48,532 nt of DNA, taken from Saprospiraceae bacterium. Its GTDB lineage: Bacteria; Bacteroidota; Bacteroidia; Chitinophagales; Saprospiraceae. A program made the translations under genes and the position numbers. This document shows, piece after piece, positions 21,009 through 28,070 of this stretch. Below the pieces are notes generated by a model. That model made no database searches. It was given only the letters and a program-made list of their open reading frames with translations, and was not told the DNA's origin. Position 1 is the first letter of the stretch. Each line of letters opens with the position of its first letter. The stretch is taken from contig JAEUUU010000068.1 in assembly GCA_016787345.1 (NCBI GenBank), positions 1-48,532 on the forward strand, read 5' to 3'.

Positions 21009-24000
21009 TTAACGACTGACCACCACTTTTGCCCAAAATTGTCGCCCTTCGCTGCGCAACAACAACAGGTACAAACCGGATGGCTGTGCGGACACATTCA
21101 GTTGAGCGCTATCCGTCGCAGTGTGTTGCACGATCAGCCGACCCCTCGCATCGTACAGGTAAATGTCGGCCGGATCGGAACCTGGCGTTGTGCGGCGCAA
21201 CTGCAAAAGGTCGCTGACGGGATTGGGGAACAGCAACCAGCCCGCTTCCGACAAGGGTTCGGCAGTAGCGCTGACGTTGCTCACCGTCACGGTAAGCGAT
21301 GCCGTGCAGCCGTTGGCGCCGGTCACCACCGCGGTGTAATCGCCTGCCGTGAGCCCCGAGAGGTCTTCGGTATTGCCGACGACCACGCCGTTGGAACTCC
21401 ACACGACAAGGTAAGGCCCGCTGTTTCCGCTGATGTCGAGATCGATGGCGCCAGTGCCCTGATTGTTCATATCCGGCGTCACCGATACCGTGGAAAGCGC
21501 AGGACTGTCGGGGTCGGCCAGGAGCAAATATTCCGCAGCGCTGCTGCAGCCGTTGGACTGGTCGGTAATCGTCAGACTGTACAGGCCGGGAAGGTTAACG
21601 GTAATGACCGGCTGGTCGGAACTGAACCCGCCGGGGCCCGACCAGGCATACACCGGGTTGCCGGCGGTGCTTGTGGCGGAAATGTCGGTGCTCGGACTCA
21701 GGCAATTCAAGGTGTCGCCTTCAAGGGTGATAACCGGGGGCCAGGTGTTGAAATTCACCTCGACGGAGGCCTCGCTGGTGCAACCGTTGTTGGGATTGGT
21801 CACCACCACCGTGTAGGCGCCGGGTATCATAACCCAGGGCCACTGCTCGCCTGATGTGAAATTATCGGGGCCCGTCCATTCATACAAGGCTTGCGGGGTT
21901 TTGGATAAAGCAGTCAATTGGATTAAAGGGTTTGAACAGGTAAGGGTGCCGCCGGAAGCTGTGAGGTCGGGAGCAATTGTGTCGGAATAAATTTCCAGAT
22001 CGACTGCCGTGCTGCAACCGTTGTCGGTGTCGGTCACAACGACGGAATAGGCGCCGGGTAAATTGATAATGGGCTGCGCCGAAGTGGAGGAGAAATTCTG
22101 CGGACCGGTCCATGCATAAGCCAGGTTGCCGGCAGAAGTGTTGACATAAAGCTGAATGCTTTGCACCGAACAGGTCAGCAGGCCGCCCTCGGCAATTACC
22201 GACGGAACGTTCGTATTGGCCAAAACTTCCGCGCTGGCACTGGCAGCGCAACCATTGTCCGTATCGGTCACGATGACGAAATAAGTGCCAGGCTGATCGA
22301 CGAGAGGTTCGGCTTCGTTTGAGGTGAAACCCTGTGGCCCCGACCAACTGAAGGCGGGATTATCGGCCGAGGTAGCGATTGTCAGTTGAATGTTCTGAAT
22401 AAGGCAGGTCAGGGTTCCTCCGGTAGCGGATACCTGCGGCGGGGTCGCATCTGCGCTGACCGTTAGTGTAGCGCTTGCGGTACAATTGTTGGCCGGATCG
22501 GTTGCCACCACGGTGTAGACGCCCGGTGTGTTCGTCTCCGGGTTGGGCGTGTTTGATGTGAATCCGTTGGGCCCCGACCACTGGAGCAGAACATCGGACG
22601 GAGTGGACGTGACAGAAAGACTGGCTGCCGGCTGGCTGCAGGTCAGCGTAAGATCATTGGTTTGCAGAAGCGGCTCGTCCTGATCGTCTTCGACAACAGC
22701 CGTGGTATAAGCCGTGCAGCCGTTGGTCGGATGCGTAACAACCAGTGTGTACACGCCGGGAATCGTCACCGTGGGATCTTCAACCGTGGAAGTAAATCCA
22801 CCCGGGCCCGTCCAGGAAAAACTGGCGCCGGAGGGCAATGCCTGTCCGTCGAGGGTCACGCTGGTCGTTGTGCACGTCAGCGCGCCGCCGGTAGCGGTGG
22901 CAAGGGGAAAAACGGCGGAAGAAGTGATCGATACGGTGTCGGTTGCGGTGCAGGTAGAGCCGCCGCCGTTGGCAGTCGTTTTGAGGATGTAGGTGCCCGG
23001 CATATTTACCGTGAGCGTGTTGCCGACACCTATAAGCACACCGAATTCGTTGAACCACTGTTTGAGGCCGCTGGAGGGCGCGGAATTGAGTACAAGGCTT
23101 TGGGCATTGCAATCCAGTTGCGTCGAATTGGTCTGTATGTCCGCGACTGCGTTGAGGTACACCAGCGAAAAATTATTGGTACTGTCGCAGCCCAGGTACG
23201 ATTCACAGACGGCAGAGTAGGAACCCGCCTGGTTGAATTCTTCACCGCAAACGGTCAGCGATTCGCCGGGGCACAAATACTTCACGCCGAGGAATTTGAC
23301 GATCGGCGGAAGGAGCACCACGGTTTGCTGAACGACGCTGTCACAACCCAGGTACGATGGCAGAGGGTCCGAGGTAAACGTTATGGTCCCCGGCCCTGAA
23401 TATTGCGGGTAAGGAGGATTGTCCCAAACAAAAGGGGCGTCTTCAAAGCAGACGTACAAGGTGGGTAATTGCACGATAGGGATTTCCTGCACGGTCACCG
23501 GCAGGCAGCGCGTGTCGCCCACCTTGCAAAAGTTGTGCGGCGTGACGCATACTTCTCCGCTTTCATTGCCAAACGTAATGGTCACCATGGCGCCATCGGC
23601 AAGTTCTATGTTTTGCGGGGTGGGCAGGCCGTTGATGAGGCTGCCCGGCGGCGCCGACCAGAAGTAGCTGCCGGCATTGGCAACAGGTGGTATGGTGTAA
23701 GTTACCGTGGCGCCGACGCAAACGGTATCCAGCCCTTGGATAGCGGGCGTTGGGTCCAGATCGGGGGCTACGGTGGAGCCCGGCGGGTCGATGGTGACGG
23801 AAAAATTGCACTGGTCGCCCTCCCAGCCGTCGATCATGAGCAAATACTTGGCGCCGGGAATCAGCATGTCGGAGACCAAAACCAGGGGGATATCCGCTCC
23901 ACCGGCTAGTCCGGGGTGACAAATGATCGGATCATTTCCGCAGTTTTGATACAACGCCATCTGAATGCCGTTGCCGTTGGTGCAGTTGGTCGCCAGGGCG

Positions 24001-24542
24001 GTGATCGCCACACTCGAGTCGCCGGCGACAAAGCCGATCCACTGATCATTGTGCAAAACGCCGCAAAAGCCGTTGATGCCGACATCGGGCGTGTAACCCA
24101 CCGTGGTGCCGTCGTACCCGTCGAAGGGACAAAAGAGACATGCGTCTTTGCAGTCGTCGGCAGCCGGCTGGTTGGGGTTTTCACAAACAGGAATATCGCC
24201 GAATACCATCTGGACGTTGAGGCAGGCCGGGGCGCCGTTGCCGTTGCTGTTGCCGGGTGTGACGCACACGGAGCCGGCGGTGTAGTCGAACGCGATTTGT
24301 ACGACGTTGCCGAACGGCGCGGCGATTTGCACCGGCGACGACTGGCCGTTCAGGGTGGCGCCGACCGGGAAGGTCCAGGTGTACCACTCGGCGCCGGCGA
24401 CGGCTTGCACGGAATAGGTGATGGTTGTGGTGGGCGCTACCAGCCCGGGGCCTTGCAGGGGGCCGGTGGGGCCGGGCAGTTGAGCGAATGCGCAAAGCGC
24501 GAAGAGCAAAAAGGATGCGGTGGTGAATAGACGTTTTAGCAT
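21009..24542 (-). CDS. Giant secreted repeat protein with T9SS type A sorting domain
   Basis: The 1177-residue product has a signal peptide (MLKRLFTTASFLLFALCAFA, then Q). After PKD-like domains and a Cys-rich segment come six tandem Ig/PKD-like repeats of about 85 residues. They share the pattern LTC...W-[ST]-GP-x-[GN]-F-[TS]-S...PG-x-Y-x-[VL]-x-[VI]-T...N-[NG]-C. One diverged copy precedes them and one SprB-like repeat follows. The C-terminus ('LLFPNPVSDLLQL', 'YDARGRLIV', 'PSGLYLLLL') is a Por secretion/T9SS type A domain, so the protein should be exported through the type IX system and attached at the surface. Adhesion or gliding roles are inferred. The ATG at 24542 was chosen because upstream codons run into tRNA-Leu. 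Confidence 0.92.
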   Translation of the reverse strand: MLKRLFTTASFLLFALCAFAQLPGPTGPLQGPGLVAPTTTITYSVQAVAGAEWYTWTFPVGATLNGQSSPVQIAAPFGNVVQIAFDYTAGSVCVTPGNSNGNGAPACLNVQMVFGDIPVCENPNQPAADDCKDACLFCPFDGYDGTTVGYTPDVGINGFCGVLHNDQWIGFVAGDSSVAITALATNCTNGNGIQMALYQNCGNDPIICHPGLAGGADIPLVLVSDMLIPGAKYLLMIDGWEGDQCNFSVTIDPPGSTVAPDLDPTPAIQGLDTVCVGATVTYTIPPVANAGSYFWSAPPGSLINGLPTPQNIELADGAMVTITFGNESGEVCVTPHNFCKVGDTRCLPVTVQEIPIVQLPTLYVCFEDAPFVWDNPPYPQYSGPGTITFTSDPLPSYLGCDSVVQQTVVLLPPIVKFLGVKYLCPGESLTVCGEEFNQAGSYSAVCESYLGCDSTNNFSLVYLNAVADIQTNSTQLDCNAQSLVLNSAPSSGLKQWFNEFGVLIGVGNTLTVNMPGTYILKTTANGGGSTCTATDTVSITSSAVFPLATATGGALTCTTTSVTLDGQALPSGASFSWTGPGGFTSTVEDPTVTIPGVYTLVVTHPTNGCTAYTTAVVEDDQDEPLLQTNDLTLTCSQPAASLSVTSTPSDVLLQWSGPNGFTSNTPNPETNTPGVYTVVATDPANNCTASATLTVSADATPPQVSATGGTLTCLIQNIQLTIATSADNPAFSWSGPQGFTSNEAEPLVDQPGTYFVIVTDTDNGCAASASAEVLANTNVPSVIAEGGLLTCSVQSIQLYVNTSAGNLAYAWTGPQNFSSTSAQPIINLPGAYSVVVTDTDNGCSTAVDLEIYSDTIAPDLTASGGTLTCSNPLIQLTALSKTPQALYEWTGPDNFTSGEQWPWVMIPGAYTVVVTNPNNGCTSEASVEVNFNTWPPVITLEGDTLNCLSPSTDISATSTAGNPVYAWSGPGGFSSDQPVITVNLPGLYSLTITDQSNGCSSAAEYLLLADPDSPALSTVSVTPDMNNQGTGAIDLDISGNSGPYLVVWSSNGVVVGNTEDLSGLTAGDYTAVVTGANGCTASLTVTVSNVSATAEPLSEAGWLLFPNPVSDLLQLRRTTPGSDPADIYLYDARGRLIVQHTATDSAQLNVSAQPSGLYLLLLRSEGRQFWAKVVVSR

Positions 24543-24623
24543 GGGAAGTAATTTTGTTGTTAGGCGGGAGATTCCAGCCTTCCTGCAACTGCTGCCCCAT
24601 GCGGCCTGATTTTTTTTGCGGAT

Positions 24624-24670
24624 AAAAAAAGAGCGGGTTTTTACCGCTTGCACACGGTAAAAACCCGCTC
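24624..24670 (-). terminator. Terminator of the tRNA-Leu gene
   Basis: GAGCGGGTTTTTACCG (24631-24646) and its exact reverse complement (24655-24670) form a perfect 16-bp stem with an 8-nt loop. On the minus strand it is followed by TTTTTTT. It lies 9 nt after the tRNA-Leu 3' end. Confidence 0.9.
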
Positions 24671-24679
24671 GAAAAAAGG

Positions 24680-25028
24680 TGCCCGGAACAGGACTCGAAC
24701 CTGCACGACCTTTGGGGTCAAGGGATTTTCTTACCAACTACCATTTTCATGGCAAAACAAAACAATCTGTTTTGTTTATTTGTGGTCTGGACTGTGTCTT
24801 TACCCTATTTTTTGTTAAAAAACTTAGGTATCTGCCGTACAGTCTCTACACCTTACTAACAACAAACGCCTTCTTTTAGGCGTCGCAAAAGTTAGTCTTG
24901 GCTCGGCGTTGCCATCGGAAATACACTCCGGAAGGATTCACCGAATTTGACAGAATCCCATTACGGTTTTCACGCATAATGGCTCAAATAACATAAGTCC
25001 CTCGTGTCTACCTTTTCACCACCCGGGC
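24680..25028 (-). tRNA. tRNA-Leu(UAA), interrupted by a group I intron
   Basis: The 5' exon is 25028-24995 (34 nt) and the 3' exon 24729-24680 (50 nt). Joined, they give an 84-nt class II tRNA with a complete cloverleaf. The acceptor GCCCGGG pairs with TCCGGGC, and a D stem GTG/CAC is present. The anticodon stem AGGGA/TCCCT carries loop CTTAAAA (anticodon UAA), followed by a long variable arm GACC/GGTC and a T arm with TTCGAGT. The discriminator is A, and CCA is not encoded (CCT follows). The break lies between U34 and A35 of the anticodon. tRNA finders that do not model introns would miss this gene. It decodes UUA, and wobble should allow UUG. Confidence 0.93.
24730..24994 (-). ncRNA. Group I intron (IC3-like) in tRNA-Leu(UAA)
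   Basis: This 265-nt intron has no ORF. It starts AUGUUAUUUGAGCC and ends in the terminal G (24730). P1 pairs exon GGACUU with the guide UUGAGCC, putting a U-G wobble at the 5' splice site. P2 is CCAUUAUG with CGUAAUGG (24982-24975 with 24965-24958). P4 uses UUCGG (24945-24941 region) with CCGAG. A P6 extension pairs ACUAAC with GUUAGU. The P7 strands are GACUGU (24844-24839) and ACAGUC (24795-24790), inside the classic UAGAGACU and AGACACAGUCC elements. P8 and a 10-bp P9-type hairpin follow, then a CCAU-GAAA-AUGG tetraloop stem. Self-splicing is expected from structure but untested. Confidence 0.92.
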
Positions 25029-25065: not shown

Positions 25066-25095
25066 AAAAAAGCCCGCTGATCCAGCGAGCTTTTT
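25066..25095 (-). terminator. Terminator of tRNA-Gly
   Basis: On the minus strand AAAAAGCTCGCTG pairs with CAGCGGGCTTTTT around a GAT loop with one wobble, continuing into a T-run. It starts at the tRNA-Gly CCA end. Confidence 0.8.
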
Positions 25096-25170
25096 GGAGC
25101 GGAAAACGAGATTCGAACTCGCGACCTCAACCTTGGCAAGGTTGCGCTCTACCAGCTGAGCTACTTCCGC
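25095..25170 (-). tRNA. tRNA-Gly(GCC)
   Basis: This is a 76-nt tRNA including an encoded CCA (25097-25095). The acceptor is GCGGAAG with TTTCCGC, the D arm is GCTC...GAGC, and the anticodon stem is CAACC/GGTTG with loop TTGCCAA (anticodon GCC). The T arm is GCGAG-TTCGAAT-CTCGT. It reads GGC and GGU codons. Confidence 0.95.
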
Positions 25171-25940: not shown

Positions 25941-28070
25941 TCAATTGGTGGATACAACGTTTTCAGTCTGTTTTAGTTCGGGTAGAACCGCGGCCGCCGC
26001 TTTTTGGGTTTGCAGCAATTCAAGTTTGCGTTTGTAGTAAAAATAAGTTTCTAACTGCGCCCGCACCGGAATATCCGTAGCGCTGCGCCGGTATTCGTTG
26101 GTATTGTAGCGGTCGATGATGCGCGCTTTTACGTTGTCGTTGAGTTGGAGATCGAGCAGGTCTTTGATTTCTTTTTGCAGAGCCGGGTCGTACACCGGAA
26201 AGGTCGTTTCGATCCGGTGCGTCAGGTTGCGCTCCATCCAGTCGGCGCTCGACATGTAGTACAGTTCCTTGCCGCCGTTGTGGAATACCAGGATGCGCGC
26301 GTGTTCGAGAAAGCGGTCGACGATACTGATCACCTCGATATTGTCGCTGATGCCTTTTATACCCGGTACAAGGCAGCAGATGCCCCGTACAATCAGTTTG
26401 ATCTTGACGCCGGCGCGGGAGGCTTCGTAGAGTTTTTCCACGATTTCGCGGTCTTCCAGGCTGTTGAGTTTCAGGATCATTCCGGCGGGTTTTTTCTTTT
26501 TTGCCGCGGCGATTTCCTGATCGATCAGGTGATAGAAAGAGGGGCGAAGGTTGAATTTCCCCACGAGCAGGTGTTCGAATTTCACCGGACCGTGCTGGAT
26601 ATTTTCCAGGTGGCTGAAAAGCAGGGTGGCTTCGGAGGTCAGCCGTTGGTCGCAGGTGAACAAGCCGAAATCGGAATATATCTTGGCGGTATCTTCATGA
26701 AAATTGCCGGTGCTGAAATAGGTGTACAGCCGCGCTTCGCCTTCTTCTATCCGCCGAACCAGCGCCACTTTGGCGTGCACCTTGACGCCCGGCATGGAAT
26801 AATACACCCTTACACCGGCGCGCTCCATGCGTTCGCCCCATTCGAGGTTGGCAGCTTCGTCGAAACGGGCTTTAATCTCCACAAATGCGGATACCTGCTT
26901 GCCATGCTTCACGGCCTCCATCAGAGCGTGCATGATTCGACTGTTTCGCGCGACCCGGTACTGAATCACCTTGATGTGCGTAACAGAGGGGTCGACGGCC
27001 GCCTTTTCAAAAAAATTGACCACGGCGTCGTACGACTGATAAGGCATGTGCAGCAACTGGTCTTTGGCCCGGATGATGCTGAACGGGTCGTCGGTATCGT
27101 GCAAGAGGGGGTGATGTAATGGCGGCAATGGTTTGTTTTTCAGGTGGGTAAGGCCAAAATCGGGGAATTTGAAAAAGTCGAAGTTGTTGTGGTAGCGGCC
27201 CTCGGGCAACATGTCGTATTTGCCCAGATCGAAGGTGTCCTGCAGGTATTCGAGCAGGTGGCCGGGCATTTCCTGGTCGTACACGAAGCGGCTGGCGGGC
27301 CCGACTTGCCGTTTTTGCAGGCTGGATTTGATTTTTTGCACCAAATCGCCCGAGTACTCATCCTCGATGTACAGCTCGGCGTCGCGGGTGAGTTTGATGG
27401 AATAGGTGTCCTGTACCTCATAGCCGGGGAACAGCCAGGACACCGAGTGCCGCACGATGTCGTCGAGCAGGATCACGTCGTGGGTGCCGGGCGCCGAAGG
27501 AAGCGGTACGAAGCGGGGCAACTGATCGCTGGGTATTTTTACAATGGCATATTCGCTTTGCGCCACAGGCTTTTTGCGCTGACGCAGGTGTACGGCCAGG
27601 TACAGGTGTGCGTTGGCCAGGAACGGCCGGATGCGGCGTTTGACCAGCAATACCGGCATAACGAAAGGCAAAAGGTTGTCGCGGAAATAAGCCTCTACGA
27701 AAGCGCGCTGTTCGGCGTTCAGGTCGAGCCGGCGCAGCATCCGGATGCGGTGGCGCGATAATTCGGGTACGATCTGGTGGAGAAAAACATCGGAAAGTTC
27801 GCTTTGCTGCCGGTTGACGATCCGGTGAATCTCTTTCAATACTTCCGTCGGGTCGAAATCAAGCTGGGCTTTTGTTTTTTTGCCCACCTTTTTCAAATTG
27901 CGGATGTTGGCGACCCGGATGCGAAAAAACTCATCGAGGTTGGAAGAATAGATGGCCAGGAACTTGAGTCTTTCCAACAGGGGGACAGCAGGGTCTTTGG
28001 CTTCCTGAAGGACGCGGTAATTGAAAGAAAGCCAGGAAATATCGCGGTGAACGAAAGGGAGTAGCGCCAT
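25941..28070 (-). CDS. ppk1: Polyphosphate kinase 1
   Basis: It reversibly moves the gamma-phosphate of ATP onto polyphosphate chains. The 709-residue length and all four domains fit PPK1. The N-terminal domain is 'FVHRDISWLSFNYRVLQEAKD', and the head domain follows. The two phospholipase D-like catalytic domains carry 'PGVKVHAKVALV' (autophosphorylated His near residue 431) and 'FLEHARILVFHNGGKE' (second conserved His). 'KARFDEAANLEWGERMERAGV' is also typical. It is cytosolic or membrane-associated. It has a J-domain gene directly downstream and DUF72 upstream; no ppx is nearby. Confidence 0.96.
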   Translation of the reverse strand: MALLPFVHRDISWLSFNYRVLQEAKDPAVPLLERLKFLAIYSSNLDEFFRIRVANIRNLKKVGKKTKAQLDFDPTEVLKEIHRIVNRQQSELSDVFLHQIVPELSRHRIRMLRRLDLNAEQRAFVEAYFRDNLLPFVMPVLLVKRRIRPFLANAHLYLAVHLRQRKKPVAQSEYAIVKIPSDQLPRFVPLPSAPGTHDVILLDDIVRHSVSWLFPGYEVQDTYSIKLTRDAELYIEDEYSGDLVQKIKSSLQKRQVGPASRFVYDQEMPGHLLEYLQDTFDLGKYDMLPEGRYHNNFDFFKFPDFGLTHLKNKPLPPLHHPLLHDTDDPFSIIRAKDQLLHMPYQSYDAVVNFFEKAAVDPSVTHIKVIQYRVARNSRIMHALMEAVKHGKQVSAFVEIKARFDEAANLEWGERMERAGVRVYYSMPGVKVHAKVALVRRIEEGEARLYTYFSTGNFHEDTAKIYSDFGLFTCDQRLTSEATLLFSHLENIQHGPVKFEHLLVGKFNLRPSFYHLIDQEIAAAKKKKPAGMILKLNSLEDREIVEKLYEASRAGVKIKLIVRGICCLVPGIKGISDNIEVISIVDRFLEHARILVFHNGGKELYYMSSADWMERNLTHRIETTFPVYDPALQKEIKDLLDLQLNDNVKARIIDRYNTNEYRRSATDIPVRAQLETYFYYKRKLELLQTQKAAAAVLPELKQTENVVSTN

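Follow-up and report, generated by a model that had tools for sequence, protein, structure and literature searches.

A group I intron splits the one tRNA-Leu(UAA) gene detected in a Saprospiraceae bacterium, and related tRNA introns occur in its family

The intron of tRNA-Leu(UAA) is the textbook example of an old intron common to cyanobacteria and chloroplasts. In the window analysed here, a stretch of 48,532 nucleotides from a Saprospiraceae bacterium, a group I intron interrupts the same tRNA at the same site, after U34, and its size and guide are like those of the classic intron; it differs in its host, a member of the Bacteroidota, and in its core, to which a provisional Anabaena sequence is not the closest. 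Some same-site relatives of the window intron encode an HNH-like protein, which the classic cyanobacterial intron is not known to do. The fMet intron of Synechocystis, which contains the gene of the endonuclease I-SspI, has a counterpart elsewhere in the genome studied, where an fMet intron after U33 encodes a PF11645/2ost relative; this system, however, concerns another tRNA and another intron than that of the window. The window intron presumably belongs to subgroup IC3, the subgroup of tRNA introns.

Interrupted tRNA genes are also described for BOGUAY, a Beggiatoa, and for Thiomargarita, both Gammaproteobacteria. There, tRNA-Leu-TAA and tRNA-Arg-TCT, the same two tRNAs as are interrupted here, are reported to contain introns described as putative group I introns, and the two tRNAs were missing from the annotation (PMC4853749). 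tRNA-Leu(UAA) introns outside the cyanobacteria are already in print. For the Saprospiraceae and the Bacteroidia, group I introns in the T-loop of tmRNA are reported in PMC11915505; family and class invaded are the same as here, whereas host gene and site differ. Introns of fMet and Ile2 tRNAs escape tRNAscan-SE, as stated in PMC8450103. The literature searched, mainly open-access text, yielded no account of such introns in a member of the Bacteroidota.

The tRNA-Leu(UAA) gene occupies positions 24680-25028 of the window on the minus strand and is interrupted after U34 by a group I intron of 265 nt. The features of the locus are:

25941..28070, minus strand: polyphosphate kinase gene, neighbour on the upstream side (Pfam PF13090, E 1.2e-70, plus three more PP_kinase domains)
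25095..25170, minus strand: tRNA-Gly(GCC), upstream member of a Gly-Leu tandem found in congeners too (cmscan, ARAGORN)
24995..25028, minus strand: 5' exon of tRNA-Leu(UAA), 34 nt, last base U34 (ARAGORN intron mode, spliced fold)
24730..24994, minus strand: group I intron, 265 nt, terminal G (RF00028, R1, ARAGORN intron mode, spliced fold)
24983..24985, minus strand: internal guide GAG, 3' side of P1, opposite exon C32-U33-U34 (read from the sequence)
24949..24954, minus strand: 5' strand of P3 (nine-sequence covariation alignment)
24839..24844, minus strand: 5' strand of P7, GACUGU (covariation alignment, columns 146-151)
24831..24836, minus strand: 3' strand of P3 (nine-sequence covariation alignment)
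24790..24795, minus strand: 3' strand of P7, ACAGUC (covariation alignment, columns 202-207)
24680..24729, minus strand: 3' exon of tRNA-Leu(UAA), 50 nt, starting AAAAUCCC (A35) (ARAGORN intron mode, spliced fold)

Run over all of the window with gathering thresholds, cmscan returned two matches, one tRNA and one Intron_gpI (RF00028; 25004-24772, minus strand; E 1.6e-10), the latter with 52.2 bits and thus a small margin over the gathering cut-off of 50 bits. R1, an intron model built in this work, gave the intron a score of 139.6 bits, the window itself being among the sequences from which the model was built. With introns allowed, ARAGORN reported tRNA-Leu(taa) at c[24678,25028] with a 265-nt intron after position 34, whereas plain ARAGORN found the tRNA-Gly only and missed the split Leu gene. 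The joined exons (34 + 50 nt) fold as a class II tRNA-Leu with anticodon UAA and all stems intact. An earlier interpretation of the letters by themselves (the sequence-only reading) had placed a gene at 24680..25028 in a Bacteroidota genome, divided it into 34, 265 and 50 nt about an insertion after U34, recognized a class II leucine tRNA with UAA anticodon and a group I intron, and predicted that gene finders lacking an intron model would overlook it. Coordinates, division and site were reproduced by ARAGORN in intron mode and by the spliced fold, which also agrees with the tRNA class; the RF00028 match upholds the group I assignment, plain ARAGORN indeed overlooks the gene, and the host is a member of the Bacteroidota.

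Just downstream of the tRNA-Leu gene, at 24623-24672, an inverted repeat followed by a T run on the minus strand appears terminator-like by eye. A mechanically derived ORF of 1242 aa (21009-24737) has its TTG start, at 24737, within the intron; the true start of this ORF is likely a later ATG near 24542, which is followed by a signal-like sequence.

The upstream exon terminates in ...CUU, and the final base of the intron is the G at 24730. In P1, U34 forms a U.G wobble at the 5' splice site with a guide G belonging to UUUGAG. This wobble, the P7 strands GACUGU/ACAGUC and the terminal G can be read from the sequence just as the sequence-only reading had listed them, and the guide it gave, UUGAGCC, agrees with that of the Anabaena intron. 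On its own strand, the intron contains no ATG-started frame longer than 33 aa. In an alignment of nine introns, 91.7% of the cells are paired and 30 of 47 pairs show changes on both sides. P3 is paired in 100% of the cells, with four of its six pairs altered on both sides; in P7, the guanosine-binding helix, four pairs are invariant, one is altered on both sides, and the sixth is formed in the window only. The structure evaluated comprises the RNAalifold helices, minus one false helix, plus the P7 pseudoknot. Its covariation score was 0.509, as compared to a mean of 0.208 for shuffled alignments, none of which reached the observed value (0/500), and to at most 0.144 for slid controls, over which it is favoured because the structure was mostly predicted on the same nine sequences; as the window is one of these, the covariation is stronger evidence for the nine together than for the window by itself.

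The bacterium's own genome (G000) contains 31 tRNA matches, including Leu CAA, UAG, CAG and GAG, among which UAA is absent. An anticodon-arm pattern for uninterrupted Leu(UAA), allowing one mismatch, likewise had no match in this assembly, which consists of 191 contigs and is only 94% complete, so that a second UAA gene could have been missed. UUA codons are used in the neighbourhood, amounting to five of the 1766 codons of five ORFs near the split gene. The sequence-only reading had made its case depend on an Rfam match, on exons scoring as a tRNA and on the lack of an intact UAA gene; the match is present, the exons do score as a tRNA, and the assembly, 94% complete, yielded no intact gene for UAA. 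The group I intron is real and very probably functional, and it sits in the sole tRNA-Leu(UAA) gene detected.

A search of G000 with RF00028 revealed three introns. The fMet(CAU) gene (L002, C177:37491-37692 plus upstream sequence) contains a 651-nt intron after U33, encoding a 149-aa PD-(D/E)XK protein (PF11645 PDDEXK_5, E 2.3e-48; PDB 2ost, I-SspI of Synechocystis, E 1.6e-59). The intron of the Ile2(CAU) gene (L001, C4:32779-33073 plus upstream sequence) carries a 151-aa ORF that is HNH-like by eye; a Pfam scan of this ORF yielded nothing above cut-off.

The distribution of such introns was surveyed with R1. In the genus, 11 of 42 genomes gave any R1 match, and the Leu-U34 intron, which the sequence-only reading had proposed to look for in related genomes, occurs in seven of the 42 (G000, G010, G020, G022, G023, G030 and G064). 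An uninterrupted Leu(UAA) gene was recognized in 30 of the 42 by the anticodon-arm pattern with one mismatch. Both forms together were observed in none (0/42; Fisher p 3e-5, relatedness ignored), and five genomes, 76-94% complete, showed neither (G017, G025, G027, G029 and G062). A tRNA-Gly gene lies ahead of the split Leu gene in each of the six congeners inspected that bear the intron; for the intact Leu gene the same holds at seven of the ten loci inspected (of 30), the other three being without a Gly call. The intron model matched in 80 of 398 genomes of the family, own genome counted, corresponding to 36 of 112 genera, as opposed to 14 of the 389 class-sample genomes outside the family (p 1e-13; 16/395 before removal of six same-family genomes, two of them matching); the phylum sample gave 25/395. 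Each of the family, class and phylum samples is an even draw from a larger group. Since searches over more than 40 genomes use stricter filters, by which weak matches are lost, the distribution counts are lower bounds; the rows of the family are not independent, as L320, L321 and L322 are alike and stem from one genus.

Of 112 intron places in the family, 100 were typed by exon sequence, with a pattern that required a G before the 3' exon in relatives; six others (G000 C4, G424 twice, G032, G030 C395 and G061) were viewed separately, and six weak places were left out. The typed places comprise 39 in Leu(UAA) after U34, 31 in fMet after U33, 14 in Ile2 after U36, seven in Leu(UAA) after U33, five in the tmRNA T-loop, three in tRNA-Arg and one unresolved (L342, without 3' end). 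ARAGORN labels such as Leu(caa), Tyr(ata) and Gln(ctg) resulted from misplaced splice sites and were dropped in favour of typing by exons. Group I introns break the T-loop of tmRNA genes of the family at L337, L339, L341, L343 and L346. Introns between U33 and U34 of tRNA-Leu(UAA) were noted at L077, L281, L285, L286, L296, L299, L318 and L319, some with HNH-like ORFs; in a tree of 97 cores, six introns of this kind group with L068 (SH-aLRT 99), while L233 is placed elsewhere.

A 29-base pattern of the Leu-type core, drawn from Bacteroidota and not matched by the window itself, identified 19 records among 84,980 genomes, 18 of them titled as Bacteroidota (Saprospiraceae or other) and one as an Anaerolineae MAG, whose intron, judged by the exons, is in fMet. 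In three named strains among the 18, Larkinella punicea, Spirosoma spitsbergense and Fibrella rubiginis, the intron with the core pattern is located in tRNA-Leu(UAA). The Leu intron is best read as one more example of an established kind, in a host group that is rich in introns but scarcely documented, and such introns are unusually frequent in the family. The data suggest that tRNA introns come and go often in the Saprospiraceae. The sequence-only reading had offered transfer from a cyanobacterial lineage or a wider ancient distribution as explanations; the patchiness within one genus, with empty, ORF-bearing and ORF-free sites, fits repeated gain and loss in Bacteroidota, perhaps also in their phages.

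An ORF of 151-159 aa is present in six of the 39 Leu-U34 introns of the family (L051, L253, L254, L258, L279 and L280; boundaries were not set for one of the 39). An HNH-like motif is kept across nine aligned ORFs, namely those of L051, L253, L254, L258, L280, L213 (Flavipsychrobacter), L101 (viral contig) and two U33-site introns; L279 was missed by the motif search and hence is outside the alignment. The one ORF scanned against Pfam, that of L051, remained below the gathering scores (HNH_3, 22.4 vs 24.8 bits; HNH_2, 18.6 vs 21 bits). The genus comprises the stages of a full ORF (L051), ORF-free introns (the window, L008, L009, L011 and L012) and the empty site (30 genomes). Another congener, L010, contains a sequence that by eye resembles the tail of a Leu-site ORF, with no open frame listed. 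Judged by distribution and ORFs, it is probably the HNH-like form at the Leu site and the PD-(D/E)XK form at the fMet site that represent the mobile stage.

In viral contigs, at least 120 stretches matched a general core pattern, and among 80 loci taken, ARAGORN with introns detected a split tRNA-Leu(taa) in 14, including some near-duplicates and the doubtful L093. Viral tRNA-Leu(UAA) genes split by introns of about 200 nt were seen at L096, L102, L106, L115, L124, L126, L130, L140, L151 and L158; L102 and L106 by eye lack the long variable arm despite the UAA anticodon. Further viral group I introns reside in genes called tRNA-Thr, Lys, Asn and Arg by ARAGORN (L116, L134, L146 and L242). Proteins were scanned on five viral contigs bearing a split tRNA: L106 and L158 encode RIIA/RIIB, and L124 and L102 a phage-family DNA ligase, which is a weaker phage sign; on L242 (tRNA-Arg), the scan showed nothing beyond ATPases or families without known function. 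In L124, the split gene is located inside a tRNA cluster. A 2014 review places the phage introns observed until then in protein genes (PMC3984707). In the 642-kb phage record LR756502.1 (L356, 400460-405891), a dense tRNA array encloses the gene of a protein that shares 45% identity with the HNH-like ORF of the Leu site; there was no R1 match in this stretch. BLAST of the entire split gene against phages and plasmids returned exon pieces only. Neither a core pattern of the window plus Arg type nor a cyanobacterium-like one had a match in the viral contigs, and none of 11 viral matches to a shorter P7 pattern is close to the window.

As to the origin of the window intron, tree placement and sequence identities have to be weighed against AU tests and the 3' half of the core, which leaves, as the leading but unproven reading, that this lineage acquired the intron independently; reverse splicing or recombination would have brought it in from a different tRNA intron, of the Arg or phage kind. 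This reading is tentatively held and short of an even chance. In a tree of 87 cores, the closest partner of the window is a tRNA-Arg intron from a different family (ultrafast bootstrap 95), followed by a viral tRNA-Arg intron (88), and a tRNA-Arg intron is also the best match of its core (73%). The congeners G061 and G030 have introns of 574 and 597 nt in apparent tRNA-Arg genes (L057 and L060, respectively), which share the GACTGTA start of P7 with the window; however, ARAGORN calls these genes Phe and Ser, so that their Arg identity is a reading from exon similarity. After rebuilding of the tree with 88 of 97 rows, nine long or weak rows having been removed before the AU tests, the window-Arg pair, which has long branches, received an SH-aLRT of only 57. 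When the 3' half of the window core alone was compared (L233 and L268 absent), an fMet intron came first (79.7%) and the best of the congener Arg introns eighth. An origin from tRNA-Arg specifically, attractive at first, was weakened by these last two results. Vertical inheritance from an intron of the genus ancestor, accompanied by many losses, is a rather doubtful alternative: the Gly-Leu tandem flanks the site with and without the intron, and trees holding the window together with six congener introns were not rejected (p-AU 0.296), nor were those including eight further Leu introns (p-AU 0.454) or all Bacteroidota Leu-U34 introns (p-AU 0.0625), but the window core is only 54-60% identical to those of the six congeners, which share 69-84% among themselves, and the window branches away from them in two trees, falling into an open group without strong support in that of 97 cores.

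Direct horizontal transfer of the classic cyanobacterial/plastid intron into this bacterium would account for the identical site and guide, and the match of the fMet-intron protein to 2ost (I-SspI) indicates that fMet introns or their genes were probably exchanged between both phyla in some direction. Nevertheless, we consider such a transfer of the Leu intron quite unlikely, because 18 of the 19 core-pattern records carry Bacteroidota titles, albeit with a pattern of Bacteroidota origin that misses the window itself, and because the provisional Anabaena intron sequence shares 62% identity with the window core, which ranks 49th of 97 in this comparison; the same Anabaena sequence had no plasmid match. 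That the intron is dead and resides in a pseudogene, UUA being read by a gene absent from the draft, seems very improbable: the 94% completeness, the 191 contigs and the mere 31 tRNA matches leave room for such a gene, but the exons are intact with all stems, and core helices and splice-site marks are retained.

A functional intron would act as follows. The precursor would be transcribed, and P1 would set U34 opposite the guide G; bound guanosine would then cut after U34, and the freed exon would attack after the terminal G and join A35, which would yield a normal tRNA able to decode UUA. Guanosine-initiated two-step splicing is established chemistry for group I introns. The window intron has intact exons, core helices and splice-site marks and sits in the sole copy found in the assembly; its transcription and splicing are predicted. 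We are highly confident in the combined reading that it would splice to a normal UUA-reading tRNA and belongs, as a form without an ORF, to a tRNA-intron pool whose members are gained, decay and are lost within the family. A broader scenario is speculative and, in our estimate, improbable as a whole: Saprospiraceae and their phages might maintain an active pool of anticodon-loop introns, in which U34 is re-seeded by ORF-bearing or phage Leu introns and introns jump between tRNA genes, that of the window perhaps from Arg, the old, immobile intron of cyanobacteria and plastids being one frozen branch.

In these genomes, a probably essential gene escapes tRNA annotation that lacks an intron model. 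The wider distribution of the introns is of more interest than the single case of the window. Among close relatives, the U34 site is empty, filled, or filled with an ORF-bearing intron, and with such variation the gain, spread and decay of tRNA introns could be studied within one genus.
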